Shown in pieces: positions 20,628 to 27,380 of a stretch of 64,000 nucleotides of DNA. This DNA is from Desulfovibrio aminophilus. GTDB taxonomy: Bacteria; Desulfobacterota; Desulfovibrionia; Desulfovibrionales; Desulfovibrionaceae. The notes below the pieces were generated by a model. The model had not been told where the DNA came from. It worked only from the letters and a program-made list of their open reading frames with translations, and did not search any database. Where the stretch lies: positions 310,001 to 374,000 of the forward strand of contig NZ_JAMHGA010000012.1 of assembly GCF_023660105.1 (NCBI RefSeq), read 5' to 3'. Each line of letters opens with the position of its first letter. Within the stretch, counting starts at the first letter, position 1. Made by a program: the position numbers and the translations under genes.

Positions 20628-20704
20628 CGGGATGTAGCGCAGCCTGGAAGCGCACTTGAATGGGGTTCAAGGGGTCGGAGGTTCAAATCCTCTCATCCCG
20701 ACCA
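20628..20704 (+). tRNA. tRNA-Pro(GGG)
   Basis: The sequence folds as a complete tRNA: acceptor CGGGATG/CATCCCG, D-arm GCGC-AGCCTGGAA-GCGC, anticodon stem CTTGA/TCAAG with loop ATGGGGT, T-arm GGAGG/CCTCT with loop TTCAAAT, discriminator A and encoded CCA. The loop places GGG at positions 34-36, so it reads CCC/CCT proline codons. The C1-G72 pair and GTAGCGCAGCCTGG are typical of tRNA-Pro. Its 3' 49 nt form the left attachment site of the integrated element, and the gene remains intact. Confidence 0.96.
20656..20704 (+). repeat. attL: 49-bp direct repeat within the tRNA-Pro 3' end
   Basis: Bases 20656-20704 (from TTGAATGGGG to ATCCCGACCA) are repeated exactly at 27332-27380. They cover the anticodon loop through the CCA end. 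This is the classic attachment-site duplication left by a tyrosine integrase. Confidence 0.95.
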
Positions 20705-20918: not shown

Positions 20919-21158
20919 CTACTCGGCAGCGGCAAGGGCCTCAGCGTCCCAGACTTCCTTTTGGTCCGGGCCAGGACACAGCCAAGCCGTATTCTGGCCC
21001 GTGCTGGCGAGGGCCTCGGCCATGTCCAGGATGCGGCCTTCGCGGACGTGCGCGTTGAAGGCGGTCAGGTTGGGCTCAGCGCCATTGTTCTGGAAGAAGT
21101 GGCGGCGGCCCGCTTCAAGGGTGTTCCAGGCGGCGCGGCGGTCGGTCAGTTCGGACAT
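20919..21158 (-). CDS. Small element protein of unknown function (79 aa)
   Basis: The last gene of the element's leftward series. The 79-residue protein is acidic at its C-terminus (KEVWDAEALAAAE), has a Trp/His/Arg-rich N-terminal half (RRAAWNTLEAGRRHFFQNNG), and no membrane segment or motif that I recognise. The ribosome binding site AGGAG lies at good spacing from the ATG at 21158. It is 21 bp downstream of the 281-aa gene and probably co-transcribed with it. Confidence 0.6.
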   Translation of the reverse strand: MSELTDRRAAWNTLEAGRRHFFQNNGAEPNLTAFNAHVREGRILDMAEALASTGQNTAWLCPGPDQKEVWDAEALAAAE

Positions 21159-21179: not shown

Positions 21180-22025
21180 TTAGGCAGCCAAAGCCTCGTT
21201 GGCGATGGCCTGCAAGGGCTTGACGTTGTAGGGCAATTCCATCGGTTCGCCCGGCACGGCTCTGAGGATCGAGCCCCGGCAGACCTCGGCCAGTGCGGCA
21301 ATGTGCGTCAAGGTTTCGTGCGCATCTTCGCGCCAGTCGTCGAGCCAGCCCAGCCCGGCCGCCTTGAGGGCCTGGGTTTCAGCTTTGGCCATGACGCGAT
21401 CGGGGAGTTGCGACAGGAGCCCAAACGGGTCATCCTGGATCGCTCCGAGGGCCTGAAGCATCCCGCGATTGCCGAGGCCAAGAACCGCCTGGACGCGCTC
21501 AGCCTCGGACATGGCCCGCAGCACGTCGCGGACCTCGCGGCCCTTGAGGTAGGCGTCTTTGTCCGTCGGGTCCGGGGTCCAAGCCTCGCGGCGGATTTGG
21601 TCCACGACACGCGCCTCTTGGGCGGTCTCGATCACGATTTTTTCCAGGCTCGGGTTCAAGGCCGGGATGGCCTTGGTTAGCACTTCACGGGCACGCTGGG
21701 CCACGATCTCGGGCCGCAGGTCGCGATTGCCAAGAATTTTTTTCGCCTCGCCCCAGGGTTTAGCTAGGGGCAGCAAGGCTTCGCACAGGGCATCATAGCG
21801 GGGCGCGCGGCGCTCTCGGCTCCATGCGCTGTCCCGCGAGATGATGTTGTTCAGACGCACGTCCAAAGAGTCCAGGCCGATGACGGAGCCCATCCGGCTA
21901 ATGGCGTGATCCGTAGCGGGCTTAAAATCCATCGCCTCGGCCCGGCCCCGGAAGTCCGGGATCGGTTGCCGCTTTCCGTCCAGGTCAACGAACGTGTAGG
22001 AATCGCTTTTCGTGATCTTCAGCAT
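21180..22025 (-). CDS. Element protein of unknown function (281 aa)
   Basis: A soluble protein of 281 residues without signal peptide, membrane helix or recognised catalytic motif. It opens MLKITKSDSYTFVDLDGKRQ and is rich in Arg, Ala and acidic residues, with long predicted helices (ILTKAIPALNPSLEKIVIET region; ALGAIQDDPFGLLSQLPDRV). The ribosome binding site AAGGAG is well placed before the ATG at 22025. It is the second largest protein of the element after the integrase, in the block of accessory genes between the replication region and the left end. That is where satellites often keep interference or helper-interaction genes; this is position-based inference only. Confidence 0.65.
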   Translation of the reverse strand: MLKITKSDSYTFVDLDGKRQPIPDFRGRAEAMDFKPATDHAISRMGSVIGLDSLDVRLNNIISRDSAWSRERRAPRYDALCEALLPLAKPWGEAKKILGNRDLRPEIVAQRAREVLTKAIPALNPSLEKIVIETAQEARVVDQIRREAWTPDPTDKDAYLKGREVRDVLRAMSEAERVQAVLGLGNRGMLQALGAIQDDPFGLLSQLPDRVMAKAETQALKAAGLGWLDDWREDAHETLTHIAALAEVCRGSILRAVPGEPMELPYNVKPLQAIANEALAA

Positions 22026-22051: not shown

Positions 22052-22303
22052 TTAAAGTGTTTCAACCAAATTGGCGGCTGCAAACTCGGCCTCAGCGGCC
22101 ACAATGAGCGGGGCAGACGTGCAAGCTTCCACCCTGGCCCGGAACGTCTCCCAGGGCTCCCCTGGTTGCCGGGTGAAGACTTGGCCCTCAGCCTGTACCG
22201 TCAGGGGCTCATGCGTGCTCGGCACGATCCAGAAACGCGGAACCCGACGGTTCGCGCGGCCAGCCTCCAGAGCCTCCACGCGGGCGGCGATGCTACGCGG
22301 CAT
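22052..22303 (-). CDS. Small element protein of unknown function (83 aa)
   Basis: The 83-residue protein begins MPRSIAARVEALEAGRANRR, a short basic/helical segment of the kind seen in small phage proteins (xxRVxxLE heptads), then has a beta-rich middle (FWIVPSTHEPLTVQAEGQVF). The ATG at 22303 is chosen for its GGAGGTG ribosome binding site; a longer in-frame version overlaps two upstream genes and is unlikely. It overlaps the 76-aa gene by 11 bp. No function is recognised. Confidence 0.6.
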   Translation of the reverse strand: MPRSIAARVEALEAGRANRRVPRFWIVPSTHEPLTVQAEGQVFTRQPGEPWETFRARVEACTSAPLIVAAEAEFAAANLVETL

Positions 22304-22523
22304 GATCCACCTCCGGCTCAAGGCGGCAGTCCACCACTTGCATGACGACAAAAACCCCGCTGGGGCTCGGGTTCGCCTCTTGCGCGGCGGCCACGCTCGG
22401 ATACCGCACACCGTCAACGACGGCCGTGCCGTCCATGTCCGCGAGGATGCACGTGGTTGGAAGAGGCGGTCGGCGGTCTTCGGCGTCCCGCTCAAGCCGG
22501 GCAAGGCGGTTCCTGATGTTCAT
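22293..22523 (-). CDS. Small element protein of unknown function (76 aa)
   Basis: The 76-residue protein starts MNIRNRLARLERDAEDRRPP, resembling the N-terminus of its 83-aa neighbour (a short helical RLARLE motif). Beta-type sequence follows (TCILADMDGTAVVDGVRYPS). The two genes may be distant duplicates or share a small-phage-protein fold. The ribosome binding site AAGGAG precedes the ATG. It overlaps its upstream neighbour by 4 bp (22520-22523) and its downstream neighbour by 11 bp, so translation is probably coupled. Confidence 0.6.
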   Translation of the reverse strand: MNIRNRLARLERDAEDRRPPLPTTCILADMDGTAVVDGVRYPSVAAAQEANPSPSGVFVVMQVVDCRLEPEVDHAA

Positions 22524-22789
22524 CGGGTCTTCTCCTTTTGCTGGGCGGCCTCCAGGGCCTCCAGGCGGGCTTCCAGATCGCTTGTGGCGATGAGCCCGGC
22601 CAGCACTTGGCCGAGGTAGCCGAGACAGCGGGCAAGGGACGGGTCCACTTCGCCACGGTTCACCTTGTTCATGAGGTCGCCCAGGAACAACCGCAGGTCT
22701 TGGGCGGTCTTGAGACGGCGGCGCGGGGGCAGGCGGGGGGTGCTGGCCCGATTTCCGCGCGGGGCCTTGGCTGCGGGTTTTTTTCTCAT
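22520..22789 (-). CDS. Small basic element protein of unknown function (89 aa)
   Basis: The 89-residue protein has a strongly basic start (MRKKPAAKAPRGNRASTPRL) followed by a helical segment (TAQDLRLFLGDLMNKVNRGE) and a C-terminal coiled-coil-like LEARLEALEAAQQKEKTR. The basic N-terminus suggests nucleic-acid contact. It could be a small terminase-like or regulatory protein, but no motif is diagnostic. The ATG at 22789 has AGGAG upstream. Confidence 0.55.
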   Translation of the reverse strand: MRKKPAAKAPRGNRASTPRLPPRRRLKTAQDLRLFLGDLMNKVNRGEVDPSLARCLGYLGQVLAGLIATSDLEARLEALEAAQQKEKTR

Positions 22790-22833
22790 GCAAAAACTCC
22801 TGTCTTCTGTGTGAGATTCGCGCAGAAATGGCC

Positions 22834-23328
22834 CTACGCCGCGTCCTGGCACCCCGGGGTGAAATCTGCCTCGCCGTGGGCCTTCAAAATGGCCTGTAGC
22901 CCTTCCTGGCGCTCCCGGAGGTACTTACCCAGGAGGGAGCGGACGGCGTAGGCGGCCCCGGCCCGGTCCCCGGCCCATATGGTGGGCACCCCGTAGCGGG
23001 CCTGATAGGTAAACAAGGATTGGAGCACGGCGTGGGGCAGCATCCGGCTCCGGTAGCGGTGCTTGGCCACGTCCTGCATGGAGCACTCGGCCACGATAGC
23101 GAACAGGTCATAGCCCCGGGCGCGGCATAGCTCGGCCTCGAACCGATCCCGCCCGGCGGACAGGGAGCCCACGAGGTCGTCAATACTCTTGCGCTCACAG
23201 GCGGCCAGCGTCTCCAGGCCCTTCAAGGCGTAGTCGCCGGAGGGGAGCCCGGCCACCTCAACCGCCACGTCAGGCCAGCGGCGGAAATCCAGGGGGCATT
23301 GCTCCCGGGTGTCAACGATGATCCGCAC
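22834..23328 (-). CDS. ERCC4-domain nuclease (XPF/MUS81-type)
   Basis: A 164-residue single-domain protein. It begins VRIIVDTREQCPLDF and contains LPSGDYALKGLETLAACERK, followed by SIDDLVGSL. These are the ERCC4 nuclease motifs: the Asp of VDTREQ, the GD pair, and ERKS-x2-D that closes the metal site. Such domains cut branched or flap DNA; stand-alone versions are common in phages and mobile elements. No helix-hairpin-helix domain is attached. The start is taken at the GTG of 23328 because GGAGGTG lies 4 nt upstream; a GTG at 23346 is in frame but lacks a site. It follows the origin-like region, which fits a role in replication or recombination of the element. Confidence 0.85.
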   Translation of the reverse strand: MRIIVDTREQCPLDFRRWPDVAVEVAGLPSGDYALKGLETLAACERKSIDDLVGSLSAGRDRFEAELCRARGYDLFAIVAECSMQDVAKHRYRSRMLPHAVLQSLFTYQARYGVPTIWAGDRAGAAYAVRSLLGKYLRERQEGLQAILKAHGEADFTPGCQDAA

Positions 23329-23455
23329 GACGCACCTCCAGCCCACGGCGTTTGCGCTGAATCTTCCGATAAAGGGCGAGGCACCAAGCCAACCCCTCGG
23401 CCTCGGTGTCCGGCTTCCGGCTTTTGCCTTTGGCCTCTCGCGTCTCTTCCTTCAT
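23312..23455 (-). CDS. Small basic protein (47 aa), first gene after the origin-like region
   Basis: A 47-codon reading frame from ATG 23455 with GAGGAA 9 nt upstream: starts MKEETREAKGKSRKPDTEAE, then GLAWCLALYRKIQRKRRGLE, ending RRADHR. It is rich in Lys, Arg and Glu. Its end overlaps the start of the ERCC4 nuclease gene by 17 bp, suggesting translational coupling. No family is recognised. Confidence 0.5.
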   Translation of the reverse strand: MKEETREAKGKSRKPDTEAEGLAWCLALYRKIQRKRRGLEVRRADHR

Positions 23456-23498
23456 GGCCGCATTTCCTCTTCTGGTTCACAACTGCGATATAGGCCAA

Positions 23499-23674
23499 CA
23501 CACGGACGTGTGATCCGGTCCCCAGGATCACACTTGTCCTTTTAAGAGTCCTTCTAAGAGTCCTTCTAAAGTCCTTACGGGGTACTGGTTGCCCACTTTT
23601 GGAACCGTTGCGGAGGTACCTTTTGCCCACCCTCTGTTGGGTACTGGTTGCGCATATGGGGTACTGGTTGCCCA
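23499..23674. other. Candidate iteron-type replication origin
   Basis: Directly after the rep-like stop codon come four copies of a 16-bp sequence (plus-strand GGGTACTGGTTGCCCA) at 23659-23674, 23639-23654 (one mismatch), 23614-23629 (degenerate) and 23580-23595. A weaker fifth copy may lie near 23602-23615. Next is a 12-bp tandem repeat TCCTTCTAAGAG (about 3.7 copies, 23537-23580), AT-richer than the flanks. A GTGTGATCC/GGATCACAC inverted repeat (23508-23516 and 23525-23533) and a CACACG/CGTGTG dyad (23499-23512) follow. Iterons, short tandem AT-rich repeats and dyads next to a rep gene are the standard parts of a Rep-dependent origin. Confidence 0.7.
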
Positions 23675-24403
23675 TCATCTAGACTCGCCGCTCAGTCGAG
23701 AATTGAGCCAAGACACCTTCCGAATCTTCGGCGGCCAGATCAGGACGCGCCAATGCATTTCATCGTGAGGCTCTATGACGTAGCTGGCTTGCAAGGACTC
23801 GATAGCCGCAAGGTAGATTCGACGGCAGACCCCTGAAAACTCACGCAATACTGAGGGTTCAGCCCCGCAGATGTCGTACTTGCGCCTGTTCAAGTACTCG
23901 GTGAAATCGTCACCCTCCAACCATCCCTCTTCATCGGGGTCCAGGTCGGGGCGGGGCTTGGCAAAATATCGGAAGGCCACGGCCAGGGCCTTGCCGGTGG
24001 GCGTCAGATCAGACCACAAGCCCCCGTCGATGAATATGCTCGGCATGCATATGCCCTCCGGCGAAGTGCAGTCATTCAGGAGGTTGTAGAGCTTGGCCCG
24101 GCGGCCGTTGCGCGTGGTGACTTTCTTGGTGGACAGGAGCCCGGCCATTTCAAGCTCAAGCACCCCGGCGCGGACCCCTTTGCGGGTCAAGCCACTCATG
24201 GCGGCAAGCCGGTCTTCGGCCGGGAAACAGACCCCGTGGTCATCGGCGTGGCGCAAGAGCACGGGGTACACGGCTTGGGCGGCGCGGGTCAGGACAGACC
24301 ACGTGTTAGGGTACAAGTCCCCGCCGTTGTCTACGGCCACAACGCCCCGATCCAATGTGCGGAAGTGGCGGTCACAGGTGGGAGCAGTCCAGCGGAAGCC
24401 CAT
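23675..24403 (-). CDS. Putative replication initiator (winged-helix Rep-like protein)
   Basis: A 242-residue protein. Residues 25-105 form a winged-helix domain like those of phage and plasmid replication proteins: AAQAVYPVLLRHADDHGVCF, then FPAEDRLAAMSGLTRKGVRA and LELEMAGLLSTKKVT. The remainder is unassigned, with no helicase or primase motif visible. The assignment as Rep rests on this domain, on the iteron array that begins one base past the stop codon, and on its place after AlpA in a mobile element. A transcriptional regulator is the alternative. The ATG at 24403 has AAGGGG upstream and overlaps the stop of a 43-codon frame (TGATG). Confidence 0.65.
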   Translation of the reverse strand: MGFRWTAPTCDRHFRTLDRGVVAVDNGGDLYPNTWSVLTRAAQAVYPVLLRHADDHGVCFPAEDRLAAMSGLTRKGVRAGVLELEMAGLLSTKKVTTRNGRRAKLYNLLNDCTSPEGICMPSIFIDGGLWSDLTPTGKALAVAFRYFAKPRPDLDPDEEGWLEGDDFTEYLNRRKYDICGAEPSVLREFSGVCRRIYLAAIESLQASYVIEPHDEMHWRVLIWPPKIRKVSWLNSRLSGESR

Positions 24404-24534
24404 CACGCGCCCCTTGGCACTTGACCAAGGCGGCGGCTTCGGGTATTGTCAACCCGCATGTCGCGCCTCAGCCAGGCCGCAGTTTTCAGGAGCCCCGCCC
24501 TCGCCCGGCGGGGTTTCGCTTTTCGAGGGGTCAT
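24403..24534 (-). CDS. Possible small Arg-rich protein (43 aa) between alpA-like and rep-like genes
   Basis: A 43-codon frame starting one base after the alpA-like stop codon (TAG-C-ATG) and ending in TGATG, sharing one base with the rep-like start. It is very basic (MTPRKAKPRRARAGLLKTAA, later RSRRLGQVPRGA). The ribosome binding site is weak, but the exact fit between neighbours argues for coupled translation. The same DNA contains a CCCCGCC/GGCGGGG hairpin (24493-24513) that could instead be a leader structure of rep mRNA. Confidence 0.4.
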   Translation of the reverse strand: MTPRKAKPRRARAGLLKTAAWLRRDMRVDNTRSRRLGQVPRGA

Positions 24535-24535
24535 G

Positions 24536-24757
24536 CTAGGCGGCCTGCCGTTCGCCCCGTGCGGCCAACCAGGCGATGAAGTCGGCGCGGGTGTATCCGG
24601 CCTTACGACCAGGAATCCGGCGCGGCCCCTGGCCCATGCTGTCGAGATTGGCGAGGCGTCCGGCGGAAATGAGGCCGCCGGTCAGGACGGGCACCGCAGT
24701 CCTGGCGACGATGGGCGGCAAGCTCCGCTCCAGTTCGGAAATCTGCTCCTGATCCAT
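24536..24757 (-). CDS. AlpA-like regulator / excisionase
   Basis: A 73-residue protein with a MerR-like winged-helix: PVLTGGLISAGRLANLDSMG followed by GPRRIPGRKAGYTRADFIAW. This matches AlpA/excisionase-type proteins that bind near att sites or activate integrase and replication genes in satellites and integrative elements. The ribosome binding site AAGGAG is well placed. It leads the alpA-(43 aa)-rep block. The 113 bp upstream are AT-rich with a weak TTGAAC-N17-TAATTT promoter on the minus strand. Confidence 0.7.
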   Translation of the reverse strand: MDQEQISELERSLPPIVARTAVPVLTGGLISAGRLANLDSMGQGPRRIPGRKAGYTRADFIAWLAARGERQAA

Positions 24758-24870: not shown

Positions 24871-25401
24871 TCAATCAGTTATGGTTATGCACTCCCCAGA
24901 TGGCAGAGTGAGCCAGGTATAATGAAGCTGATCCGGGTCGATTTCCCGGGCGCGGGTCACGTAGGCCCGCAAGCAATTCTCAATCCACTCACGACTTGCT
25001 TCTGGCCCACCGGCTTCAATCTTCTCTGTCGTCTCGGCCCATGCTCGGCAAAGGGCTTCCTCGCACTCTACGGCCTTGCGGAACCACGCCAGACGCATGT
25101 GCCCCGCCAGCGTCCGGCCTTCCTGGGCCTCTAGCCCTGCCAATTTGGAAGCTTCAATCTTGGCGTCAGACTTCCGCGAAGCCGCCACCCGCAATCGGCC
25201 ATATTCGCGGGCCAAGCTCAAGGTTGCGGTGTGTTTACGCCCCGCCCTGTGCCTGAGCTTTCCCTCAAAAAAAGAGGCCAAATCATCGAAGCTCTCCGGG
25301 GGTAAAATATCCCGGTGCTTTCGCAGGAAGGCAGCCACCTTGGCTTTGTCTTTTTCGTATAGTAGGGCCAAGAACTGAGCACGAGCATGGCGGGCGTCCA
25401 T
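24871..25401 (-). CDS. Element protein of unknown function (176 aa)
   Basis: A 176-residue, charged, mostly helical protein starting MDARHARAQFLALLYEKDKA. The region 60-110 is basic and Ala/Lys-rich (LRVAASRKSDAKIEASKLAG), suggesting a nucleic-acid-binding helix. The C-terminal half contains two Cys (VECEEALCRAW and IENCLRAYV). No family is recognised. The ribosome binding site is GGAG. It lies between the integrase-side small genes and the alpA-rep block. Confidence 0.6.
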   Translation of the reverse strand: MDARHARAQFLALLYEKDKAKVAAFLRKHRDILPPESFDDLASFFEGKLRHRAGRKHTATLSLAREYGRLRVAASRKSDAKIEASKLAGLEAQEGRTLAGHMRLAWFRKAVECEEALCRAWAETTEKIEAGGPEASREWIENCLRAYVTRAREIDPDQLHYTWLTLPSGECITITD

Positions 25402-25924: not shown

Positions 25925-27160
25925 TCAGCCCACGTCGAAAACAACCTTGATGACCCCGGGTTCGCGCTTCTCATTAGCCCGCTGCTCCAGCACGTTCACG
26001 GCAGCGCGAAGACCTTCCGGGCTCAAATGGCTATAGCGCTGGGTCATGCTGAAATCAGCGTGGCCCATGAGTTCCTTGACGACGTACAAACTGGTTCCCG
26101 ACTCCACAAGCCAGCTTGCGAATGTATGGCGCAGCGTATGAAAGCACACGGCCTGCCGGGGATCGGCAACATCTTGGTTGAAGAGTTCATCGGCAACGCG
26201 GCGGAACACGTTGGAAATCCGCTTCACCCTGTCCCCGGTGCGGTCAGTAAACACCAGCGGGCCGGGCGCGGCCTTACGGCGGTTGGCTAACATGGTGCGG
26301 ACCCGCTGGGTCATGTAGGCCACGCGGTTTACGCGGGCCTTGGGGTCACGGATGAAAAGTTGCGCGCGCTCAAAATCGCAGTCGTGCCAAGTGAGGGCCG
26401 CGATTTCCCCGAAGCGCAGGCCACAATCTAGGGCCATGAGGGCCATGTCGTGGGCCAGGATAGAGCGGGGTCTAAGCGCGTCCAGGAGTTCCCGCGCCTC
26501 ATCCGGGGTCAGGTAGCGTTGCCGCCGGTTGTCACGCTTGGGCAACGTCACCAACTTTGCCGGGCACGGGCCGGACACGTACCCGTCGCGGACGGCCAGG
26601 GTCCAGACCTGCCCGAACACGGCGAAAGCGTATTTGATCGTGGCCGGGGCCTTTCCTGCCCGGAGCATGGCGGCCTTGACCTTCTCCATGTCGAAAGCCG
26701 CAACACGGGCCAGGGGCTTTTCGGCCAGGGTCGGAGCCAGCCACTTCCGCCAAAGGGCCTGCTCTGCCGTGCGGGCTCCAGGCGACTTGGCACTCTGAAC
26801 CGGCCAGTAATTTTTCGCCCAGAACTCCCCGGCAGTAACGGCGGCTCGTTCGGCCAGCTTGCGGGCCTCTTCTTCGGTTTTGCGCTTGGCCTCGGCTTTG
26901 GCGCGGCGATCCGCCAGGGTCCGCTCCCCTTCCCCTGTCCTGGCGGCCTTGCGCAGTGCAACTAGCTGCTCGTGGGCGTACTCCAACATGGATTGCCCCA
27001 TGTCTCGGTGCTCGGACTCCCAGCCTAGCCCTTCCTCGATACGTAGGCCGTTCACCCGGTAGCGGATGGAGAAATAGCGGTCAGGGCGGAGCCCGTACTT
27101 ACGGGTTGCGTGCTCATAGAACCGGATGCCCCTCGCCGCCGTCTGCCACTTCACCGACAT
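25925..27160 (-). CDS. int: Tyrosine-recombinase integrase of the tRNA-Pro element
   Basis: Site-specific recombinase that inserts and, with a partner, excises the element. At 411 residues, the N-terminal arm-binding part (about 1-95; IRYRVNGLRIEEGLGWESEH) is followed by a Lys/Glu/Ala-rich helix (about 75-115), a core-binding SAM-like domain, and the catalytic domain. The catalytic residues are visible: Arg in LRFGEIAALTW, HTLRHTFASWLV (H-x-x-R), the Met-Gly-His of LMGHADFSM and the nucleophile Tyr in MTQRYSHLS. I chose the ATG at 27160 for its GGGAGG site 8 nt upstream; a TTG at 27166 is too close to it. It lies at the right end, reading inward from attR. Confidence 0.95.
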   Translation of the reverse strand: MSVKWQTAARGIRFYEHATRKYGLRPDRYFSIRYRVNGLRIEEGLGWESEHRDMGQSMLEYAHEQLVALRKAARTGEGERTLADRRAKAEAKRKTEEEARKLAERAAVTAGEFWAKNYWPVQSAKSPGARTAEQALWRKWLAPTLAEKPLARVAAFDMEKVKAAMLRAGKAPATIKYAFAVFGQVWTLAVRDGYVSGPCPAKLVTLPKRDNRRQRYLTPDEARELLDALRPRSILAHDMALMALDCGLRFGEIAALTWHDCDFERAQLFIRDPKARVNRVAYMTQRVRTMLANRRKAAPGPLVFTDRTGDRVKRISNVFRRVADELFNQDVADPRQAVCFHTLRHTFASWLVESGTSLYVVKELMGHADFSMTQRYSHLSPEGLRAAVNVLEQRANEKREPGVIKVVFDVG

Positions 27161-27195
27161 AGCCAACGCCTCCCGACCTACTCAAAAACCGATCT

Positions 27196-27331: not shown

Positions 27332-27380
27332 TTGAATGGGGTTCAAGGGGTCGGAGGTTCAAATCCTCTCATCCCGACCA
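27332..27380 (+). repeat. attR: 49-bp copy of the tRNA-Pro 3' end
   Basis: Exact copy of 20656-20704. The preceding DNA (ACGTAAAAGTTGCACAGCG) shows no tRNA 5' half, so this is a tRNA fragment marking the right junction of the element. Confidence 0.95.

Follow-up and report, generated by a model that had tools for sequence, protein, structure and literature searches.

Positions 23499-23674 of the window (by which we mean the whole 64-kb stretch of DNA analyzed here) very probably hold the own replication start of an integrated 6.7-kb element. With considerable confidence we regard this candidate region as the oriV of an integrative element that would replicate by the theta mode after excision, its Rep protein binding the iterons and melting the adjacent 12-mers.

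The integrated element and its candidate origin

The element spans 6.7 kb and is bounded by an exact 49-bp repeat (20656-20704 versus 27332-27380). The left att copy is the last 49 bp of a tRNA-Pro (ggg) gene that ARAGORN placed at 20628-20704 on the forward strand, and the right att copy, identical to this tRNA-Pro end and on the same strand, lies beside a gene for a tyrosine integrase (25925-27166, reverse strand; PF00589 3.8e-28, phrog_1 3.8e-62). The att repeat and the integrase mark the element as a discrete unit and agree with the preliminary description of this DNA, which had treated it as integrated. A search for an empty att site of the window element in relatives found none. In the congener G028 the tRNA-Pro end lies ~18 kb from the right flank of the window site, with a different integrase between them (L101, G028:C2:141500-161000), so another island probably uses the same tRNA-Pro site there; in G060 the match to the window site covers the left flank and the tRNA and leaves out the right flank. 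This tRNA-Pro seems to be an integration site common to different elements. The host itself we take, as a guess, to be a Desulfovibrio-like sulfate reducer.

All of the predicted genes between the att repeats read from the reverse strand. Nearest to the left repeat is a 79-aa ORF with no convincing family (20922-21158), followed by three left-arm ORFs of 281 aa (21180-22025), 150 aa (22052-22504), and 110 aa (22520-22852), none of which had a family match in Pfam or PHROG, or in NCBIfam for the 281- and 110-aa proteins. The 281-aa protein, which had no match in phage records, has relatives in genome G143 and in a second element of the same genome described below; the 150-aa protein is 34% identical over 120 aa to one in L102, and the 110-aa protein has relatives in L102 (54% identity), L015, L089, and L091. 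The next recognized gene past the origin encodes an ERCC4-type nuclease (22834-23346; PF02732 1.2e-11, phrog_3490 1.5e-18), and on the other side of the origin lies rep (23675-24406). Upstream of rep is a 73-aa ORF (24536-24757) with relatives in L016, L088, and L091 and a weak likeness to AlpA-like neighbors (hhalign probability 19%); it has the position taken by an AlpA/Xis-like gene in L082, L084, L085, and L086. A 176-aa ORF with no family match (24871-25401) separates it from the integrase gene. Among the ten window proteins scanned against Pfam and PHROG no separate helicase loader, helicase, or primase was recognized, and no transfer gene was recognized in the 6.7 kb.

Read from the rep stop in the direction of rep (reverse strand), the candidate origin consists of four iterons, a 12-mer array, and a hairpin, in that order. 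The four 16-bp iterons, given here by their forward-strand letters, comprise two exact copies, one copy with a single mismatch, and one degenerate copy. Iteron 4 (23659-23674), found by mismatch search, is an exact copy of GGGTACTGGTTGCCCA, and since it ends at 23674 and the rep stop codon occupies 23675-23677 on the reverse strand, there are zero bases between them. Iteron 3 (23639-23654), found in the same way, differs from GGGTACTGGTTGCCCA by one mismatch, iteron 1 (23580-23595) is again an exact copy, and iteron 2 (23614-23629), recognized from its sequence and from the motif count below, is the degenerate AGGTACCTTTTGCCCA, which keeps the half-sites GGTA-N5-TGC. Allowing up to three mismatches, iterons 1, 3, and 4 were the sole copies in the 64-kb window; when the window was shuffled 100 times it held 0.48 iteron copies on average anywhere and reached three copies in 1 of the 100 shuffles. 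Across the 3.54 Mb of the genome there are three copies of the core GGTACTGGTTGC, every one at this origin, and the repeat score of the window over the 250 bp from the rep stop exceeded all 200 dinucleotide shuffles (p=0.005, the floor of the test). Several direct repeats are found beside their cognate rep gene, the arrangement by which an iteron origin is recognized. With start-to-start spacings of 34, 25, and 20 bp, they are only partly in phase with the helix.

A repeat search placed the 12-bp tandem repeat, the presumed DNA unwinding element, at 23536-23576 (3.5 copies, 93% matches). The A+T content is 59% over 23536-23579 versus 38% for the element, so that by both its composition and its 12-mer array an A+T-rich, unwinding-type region adjoins the iterons. 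On the far side of the array, hairpin scoring found a 9-bp stem with an 8-nt loop (23508-23533; z=-2.8 as single-stranded DNA over a 42-nt stretch), which was borderline as the strongest hairpin within 260 bp of the rep stop (p=0.049), and the inverted repeat CACACG-GA-CGTGTG (23499-23512) overlaps it. We considered a terminator role for this hairpin and set it aside as unlikely, as the hairpin is terminator-like only on the forward strand, opposite to the direction of rep. The preliminary description had listed four 16-bp direct repeats beginning one base past the rep stop, about 3.7 copies of a 12-bp tandem repeat, and two inverted repeats; each of these was recovered, the array at 3.5 copies.

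Rep, its relatives, and their gene ends

By similarity, Rep (243 aa) is an O-like/HTH_36 replication initiator, as had been proposed earlier for what was then called a winged-helix protein. It matched Pfam HTH_36 at 2.2e-7 and, in PHROG, the replication-initiation/O-like families phrog_270, phrog_1032, and phrog_391, with best E-values of 2.5e-6 to 2.6e-5. To judge from these profiles its nearest annotated families are phage O-like initiators and not Rep_3 plasmid initiators; PF01051 (Rep_3) was absent, and only HTH_36 and DprA_WH appeared among Pfam matches up to E 0.5. When residues 30-112 of Rep were compared with residues 120-226 using profiles from 26 sequences, hhalign gave a probability of 98.6%, in a comparison run without an unrelated winged-helix control. 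Both halves have W-x2-L-x3-A before the helix-turn-helix, so Rep resembles a duplicated winged helix; it looks like two tandem winged helices, and a single-sequence AlphaFold model of low confidence (pLDDT 45) has two helix-helix-helix-strand-strand units. Weak matches to DnaD-like (loader) families, at E 0.05 for Rep and down to 0.0013 for its relatives, suggest that Rep might recruit the helicase itself. A profile search of the PDB, with matches counted up to E 1, gave 58 sequences, most of them regulators of the winged-helix type; the best was PscE (0.0018), followed by the chromosome replication initiation protein 2vn2 (0.068).

None of 72,556 plasmids (PLSDB) matched Rep, and of 50,697 phage records a single one did, weakly (Pseudanabaena phage Pam5); the Rep of L018 had no match in phage records. 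Searches of IMG/VR and GTDB contigs by peptide patterns found no Rep relatives and, for ERCC4, one short match (L074). The weak match in Pam5 is an O-like open frame that is unannotated in the record (L100:2492-3331). By eye, it holds three palindromic GGGGTCAGAATGTGACCCC repeats (GGGGTCA...TGACCCC), likely a lambda-type origin.

Matches to Rep as a single sequence were found in 9 of 149 family genomes, the window's own counted, and a nine-row Rep profile at 1e-6 had matches in 63 of the 348 genomes from the order and 20 of the 395 from the phylum, many of these profile matches covering the first winged helix only. We examined 27 Rep loci, including the window (L023), which were chosen for a match across both halves of Rep, with the exception of L056 (second half only, at a contig end; absent from the rank test below). 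Left out were L039 (one internal stop), L042 (second half unmatched), and the shorter profile matches. The 27 loci are partly dependent, L024/L026 and L059/L071 being close pairs.

The repeat layout at the rep end is conserved among these loci. In most of them a locus's own repeats were visible by eye. Counting 12-mers with up to two mismatches from -200 to +150 of the rep stop, we found that 19 of 27 loci outscored each of their 100 dinucleotide shuffles, versus 3 of 149 control windows taken from the same loci; a search for repeats beside related Reps elsewhere had been named beforehand as a check, and its outcome favors the origin. Over the 250 bp from the stop, p≤0.05 was reached in 15 of 27 loci, versus 2 of 26 upstream controls and 1 of 27 in-gene controls. 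Eight loci (L022, L025, L027, L030, L032, L038, L053, and L054) missed p≤0.01 in the -200 to +150 count; L022 and L032 reached p≤0.05 in the 250-bp score, L054 had p=0.02 in the -200 to +150 count, and L030 and L038 showed no origin-like layout by eye. In L035, L040, L059, and L071 the repeats are within rep or straddle its stop, and the count positions add L058 to these; most other relatives have iterons after rep. The position of the origin along the gene end thus varies. In L041 it is 12-mers, not iterons, that give the repeat score, and these are inside rep. The strongest hairpin within 260 bp past the stop had p≤0.05 in 12 of 27 loci versus 16 of 154 controls, a signal weaker than that of the iterons, and such hairpins often lie directly behind an A+T-rich repeat. 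ERCC4-type genes near rep also recur, in 6 of 21 larger loci (the window, L015, L018, L083, L084, and L091), the gene in L018 being upstream of rep.

The iterons of the window share a bipartite motif, GCA-N5-T[AT]CC (GCA-N5-TWCC), that we picked by eye after viewing these loci. Sites of the GCA-N5-TACCC type occur in the window, L024, L026, and L032, with GCA-N5-TACCG in L055 and GCA-N5-TTCCC on the other strand in L029. There are four motif copies each at the origins of the window, L024, and L026, three each in L029 (opposite strand) and L055 (one lying apart from the array, 80 bp before the stop), and two in L032; L031 has one, and the remaining 20 loci have none at this place. Origins held 21 copies in 8.6 kb (2.43 per kb; four of them in the window), compared with 37 in 99.6 kb of flanks (0.37 per kb). 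The Reps of the five relatives with two or more copies are 52, 50, 34, 33, and 27% identical to the window Rep and are nearer to it than the other 20 that were aligned (rank test p=0.001), yet the L053 Rep is 31% identical and has no motif. These comparisons support a motif that goes with Rep similarity; since the motif was chosen by eye first, the association is support and not proof. A close pair of motifs was found in 6 of 348 order genomes, four of these being the Rep origins of G000, G090, G326, and G153, and no Rep locus that was not already known came out of either genome set (348 from the order, 395 from the phylum). Three other pair matches (L105, L106, and L111; two from the order set, one from the phylum set) are inside long open frames with no Rep within 1.5 kb, and a reversed control pattern matched two genomes in each set.

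Alternative readings, proposed mechanism, and kind of element

The claim that the 176 bp contain no gene had to be qualified, as the repeats are spanned by the open frame of a 151-aa ORF (23223-23678, reverse strand), whose ATG overlaps the rep stop (ATGA). We take this ORF to be non-coding, and in that sense the claim stands; that 23499-23674 is instead part of a protein is very improbable. Among six loci compared an ATG across the rep stop is also found in L024, L026, and L032, and in L040, L041, and L071 the repeats are indeed coding, as the tail of Rep. However, the 151-aa ORF has no Pfam or PHROG match, the peptides of the window, L024, L026, and L032 are dissimilar, the frame is ~35 codons long in L026 and ~44 codons long in L032, and it is missing from L029 and L055. 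A different use of the same repeats, as operators through which the Rep-like protein would regulate transcription of the downstream ERCC4 and left-arm genes, would fit their position upstream of the ERCC4 gene, and HTH_36 is described as conserved in many transcription regulators (PMC3832669). We nevertheless think this unlikely: the named PHROG matches of Rep are replication proteins; the repeats stay at the rep end while the next gene varies, ERCC4 being within 1.6 kb downstream of rep in 5 of 27 loci (for some loci the available sequence is shorter than 1.6 kb); they extend into rep itself in L035, L040, L059, and L071; and an operator would not be expected to have an A+T-richer 12-mer array next to the iterons.

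The region might also be a former origin in a decayed element that can no longer excise or replicate, a reading to which we give a small but real chance, as no primase, helicase, or loader was recognized and several ORFs are orphans. Against decay, the frames of Rep and the integrase are intact, the att copies agree at all 49 bp, and between L024 and L026 the 250 bp after rep (78% identity, 22 gap columns) are nearly as conserved as the last 600 bp of rep (81%). Integrase arm sites and partition (parS-like) sites are both short repeats, which is what would speak for either here. The repeats of the window are separated from the att repeats by ~2.9 and 3.7 kb, the window proteins scanned included no recognized partition protein, and we see next to no likelihood in an arm-site or partition role.

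Under the origin reading, which we prefer, the integrase would first excise the element, using the tRNA-Pro att repeat; several copies of Rep would then bind the four iterons just past their own gene and distort the DNA, and the adjoining A+T-richer 12-mer array would melt. The replicative helicase of the host, or of a helper phage, would be loaded, perhaps by Rep itself, and theta replication would then begin. The hairpin beyond the array probably belongs to the origin, as a priming or boundary element.

As to the kind of element, phage satellites are described as small integrated elements of 7-20 kb that lie between att repeats and have integrase and replication functions, without phage structural genes (PMC13376191). 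The window element has the general traits of such a satellite, with 6.7 kb, a 49-bp att repeat, an integrase, a rep gene, and no phage structural gene; having no recognized packaging gene, it may be a satellite or, equally, a plain, non-phage integrative replicon. In 9 of 21 larger Rep loci we found exact repeats, 17-64 bp long, that overlap a tRNA gene and span 6.0-11.1 kb. We surveyed 72 ORFs with PHROG at 1e-4, i.e., 62 of 100 non-window ORFs (selected by eye as likely genes) and ten window genes, the L085 Rep being left out. Among the 25 of 49 families listed, the integrase had 10 members, excisionase/regulator 7, replication initiation 4 (commonest family), and ERCC4 nuclease 3, with one major head protein and one TerS; no portal, tail, or lysis family was among these 25. 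L086:2678-12410 (G526) is a 9.7-kb tRNA-Arg element with this Rep that has an HK97 major capsid gene (PF05065 1e-45) and a TerS-like ORF (phrog_83 2e-5), and that may be a capsid-forming satellite. In L021:7579-13335 (G097), where no tRNA-linked att repeat was found, a TerS gene (Terminase_2, PF03592 1.1e-15) lies beside a weakly related rep. From the capsid and TerS genes of L086 and the TerS gene of L021, this replicon occurs in elements with satellite traits.

Alongside the L021 genes are others that, read from their translations only, resemble a type I restriction system. In L016:6825-9052 (G079) a DUF3987 gene (5e-37), of the PICMI-type primase family, lies just upstream of a Rep relative that has no detectable iterons (L030 in the repeat count), possibly reflecting another replication route. 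In L085:13688-17411 (G326), where the Rep is a close relative, there is a SIR2-like gene and then a 934-aa ORF without a Pfam match, possibly a defense pair.

The same genome contains a second element beside tRNA-Ser(cga) (L079:14600-19230 and L080:768-2266; G000:C12, ~172.6-179.3 kb). It has in common with the window element left-arm DNA stretches at 80-96% identity and relatives of the 110-, 150-, and 281-aa proteins at 62, 51 (over 146 aa), and 29% identity. Its replicon has a primase (Zn_Ribbon_Prim 2.2e-9) and an AAA_25 helicase (2.2e-43), and no Rep or ERCC4 match was found in its stretch. With a common left arm and a different replicon in two elements of one genome, the replicons look exchangeable.

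Tentatively, and as a proposal that we rate somewhat short of probable, these loci could represent an undescribed family of 6-11 kb, tRNA-integrated phage satellites found across the phylum, some with a capsid or TerS gene. In such a family the initiator would be O-like with tandem winged helices, the origin would slide inside, across, or after the rep end, the iterons would diverge together with Rep, the replicon would be swapped as a cassette within one genome, and the ERCC4 protein encoded beside the origin hairpin would act on replication intermediates.

Whatever the class of the element, Rep and its iterons offer a cis/trans pair for studying how replication starts without a recognized primase, helicase, or separate loader. 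The loci also form an evolutionary series, with lambda-type intragenic and island-type downstream origins within one initiator family, and the motif allows related elements to be typed and predicts which Rep serves which origin. Should the elements be satellites, they form a replicon class within a group of bacteria on which the open-access literature gave us prophage surveys and no satellite study. In the titles and abstracts of that literature we did not find this initiator family in integrated elements of the host phylum.

Comparison with known replication systems

An iteron origin following rep is of a known kind, because SGI1, PICIs, lambda, and the Paracoccus HTH_36 plasmids offer precedents. 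Closest in layout is SGI1, an integrated island that, like the window, has four iterons right after rep. Its four 17-bp iterons and A+T-rich repeats are directly downstream of rep, and deletion of the oriV, which has a putative DnaA box, abolishes replication (PMC7433901). The SGI1 Rep, however, has a RepA_C domain and the island is mobilized by conjugative plasmids (PMC7433901), whereas the window Rep is HTH_36/O-like and no transfer gene was recognized in the 6.7 kb. PICIs are described with int, xis, rep, and then, immediately 3', an ori with iterons and an A+T-rich region (PMC6092414), and the window ori is likewise 3' of rep with iterons and an A+T-richer region. Unlike the PICI ori, in which two iteron sets flank the A+T-rich region, the window has one iteron set on one side and a hairpin on the other; PICIs also have a primase homolog and sometimes TerS (PMC6092414), neither of which was recognized among the ten window proteins.

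The window Rep also resembles lambda in its weak O-like profile matches. Lambda O has a winged-helix fold. The iterons that this initiator binds lie beside a 40-bp A+T-rich region (PMC5043065, PMC7466680). They are in the middle of O, whereas those of the window come after the stop, and at least four relatives (L035, L040, L059, and L071) have repeats that reach into the 3' end of rep. Lambda has the replication gene P in the O operon, and in the window no separate loader was matched among the proteins scanned. Initiators with HTH_36 and iteron-like direct repeats are also reported for the Paracoccus plasmids pAES7, pMARC3, and pMOS2 (PMC3832669). In pAES7 a partial iteron covers part of the rep start codon, which places at least this plasmid's oriV at the other end of the gene, in contrast to the window oriV at the rep stop, and the window Rep had no match in PLSDB.

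Two satellites bear on the size and modularity of the element. PICMI, a satellite of very small size, combines int and alpA with a replication gene; it carries a DUF3987/DUF5906 primase and is defined with fis (PMC10803314). The window element is also very small and has int and a replication gene, but no primase was recognized in it and its site is tRNA-Pro. In PLE of Vibrio cholerae, an integrated satellite, RepA binds iterons and RepA and its ori are exchanged as a module (PMC8263062), and the replicon difference between the window element and the second element of the same genome is what such an exchange would produce.
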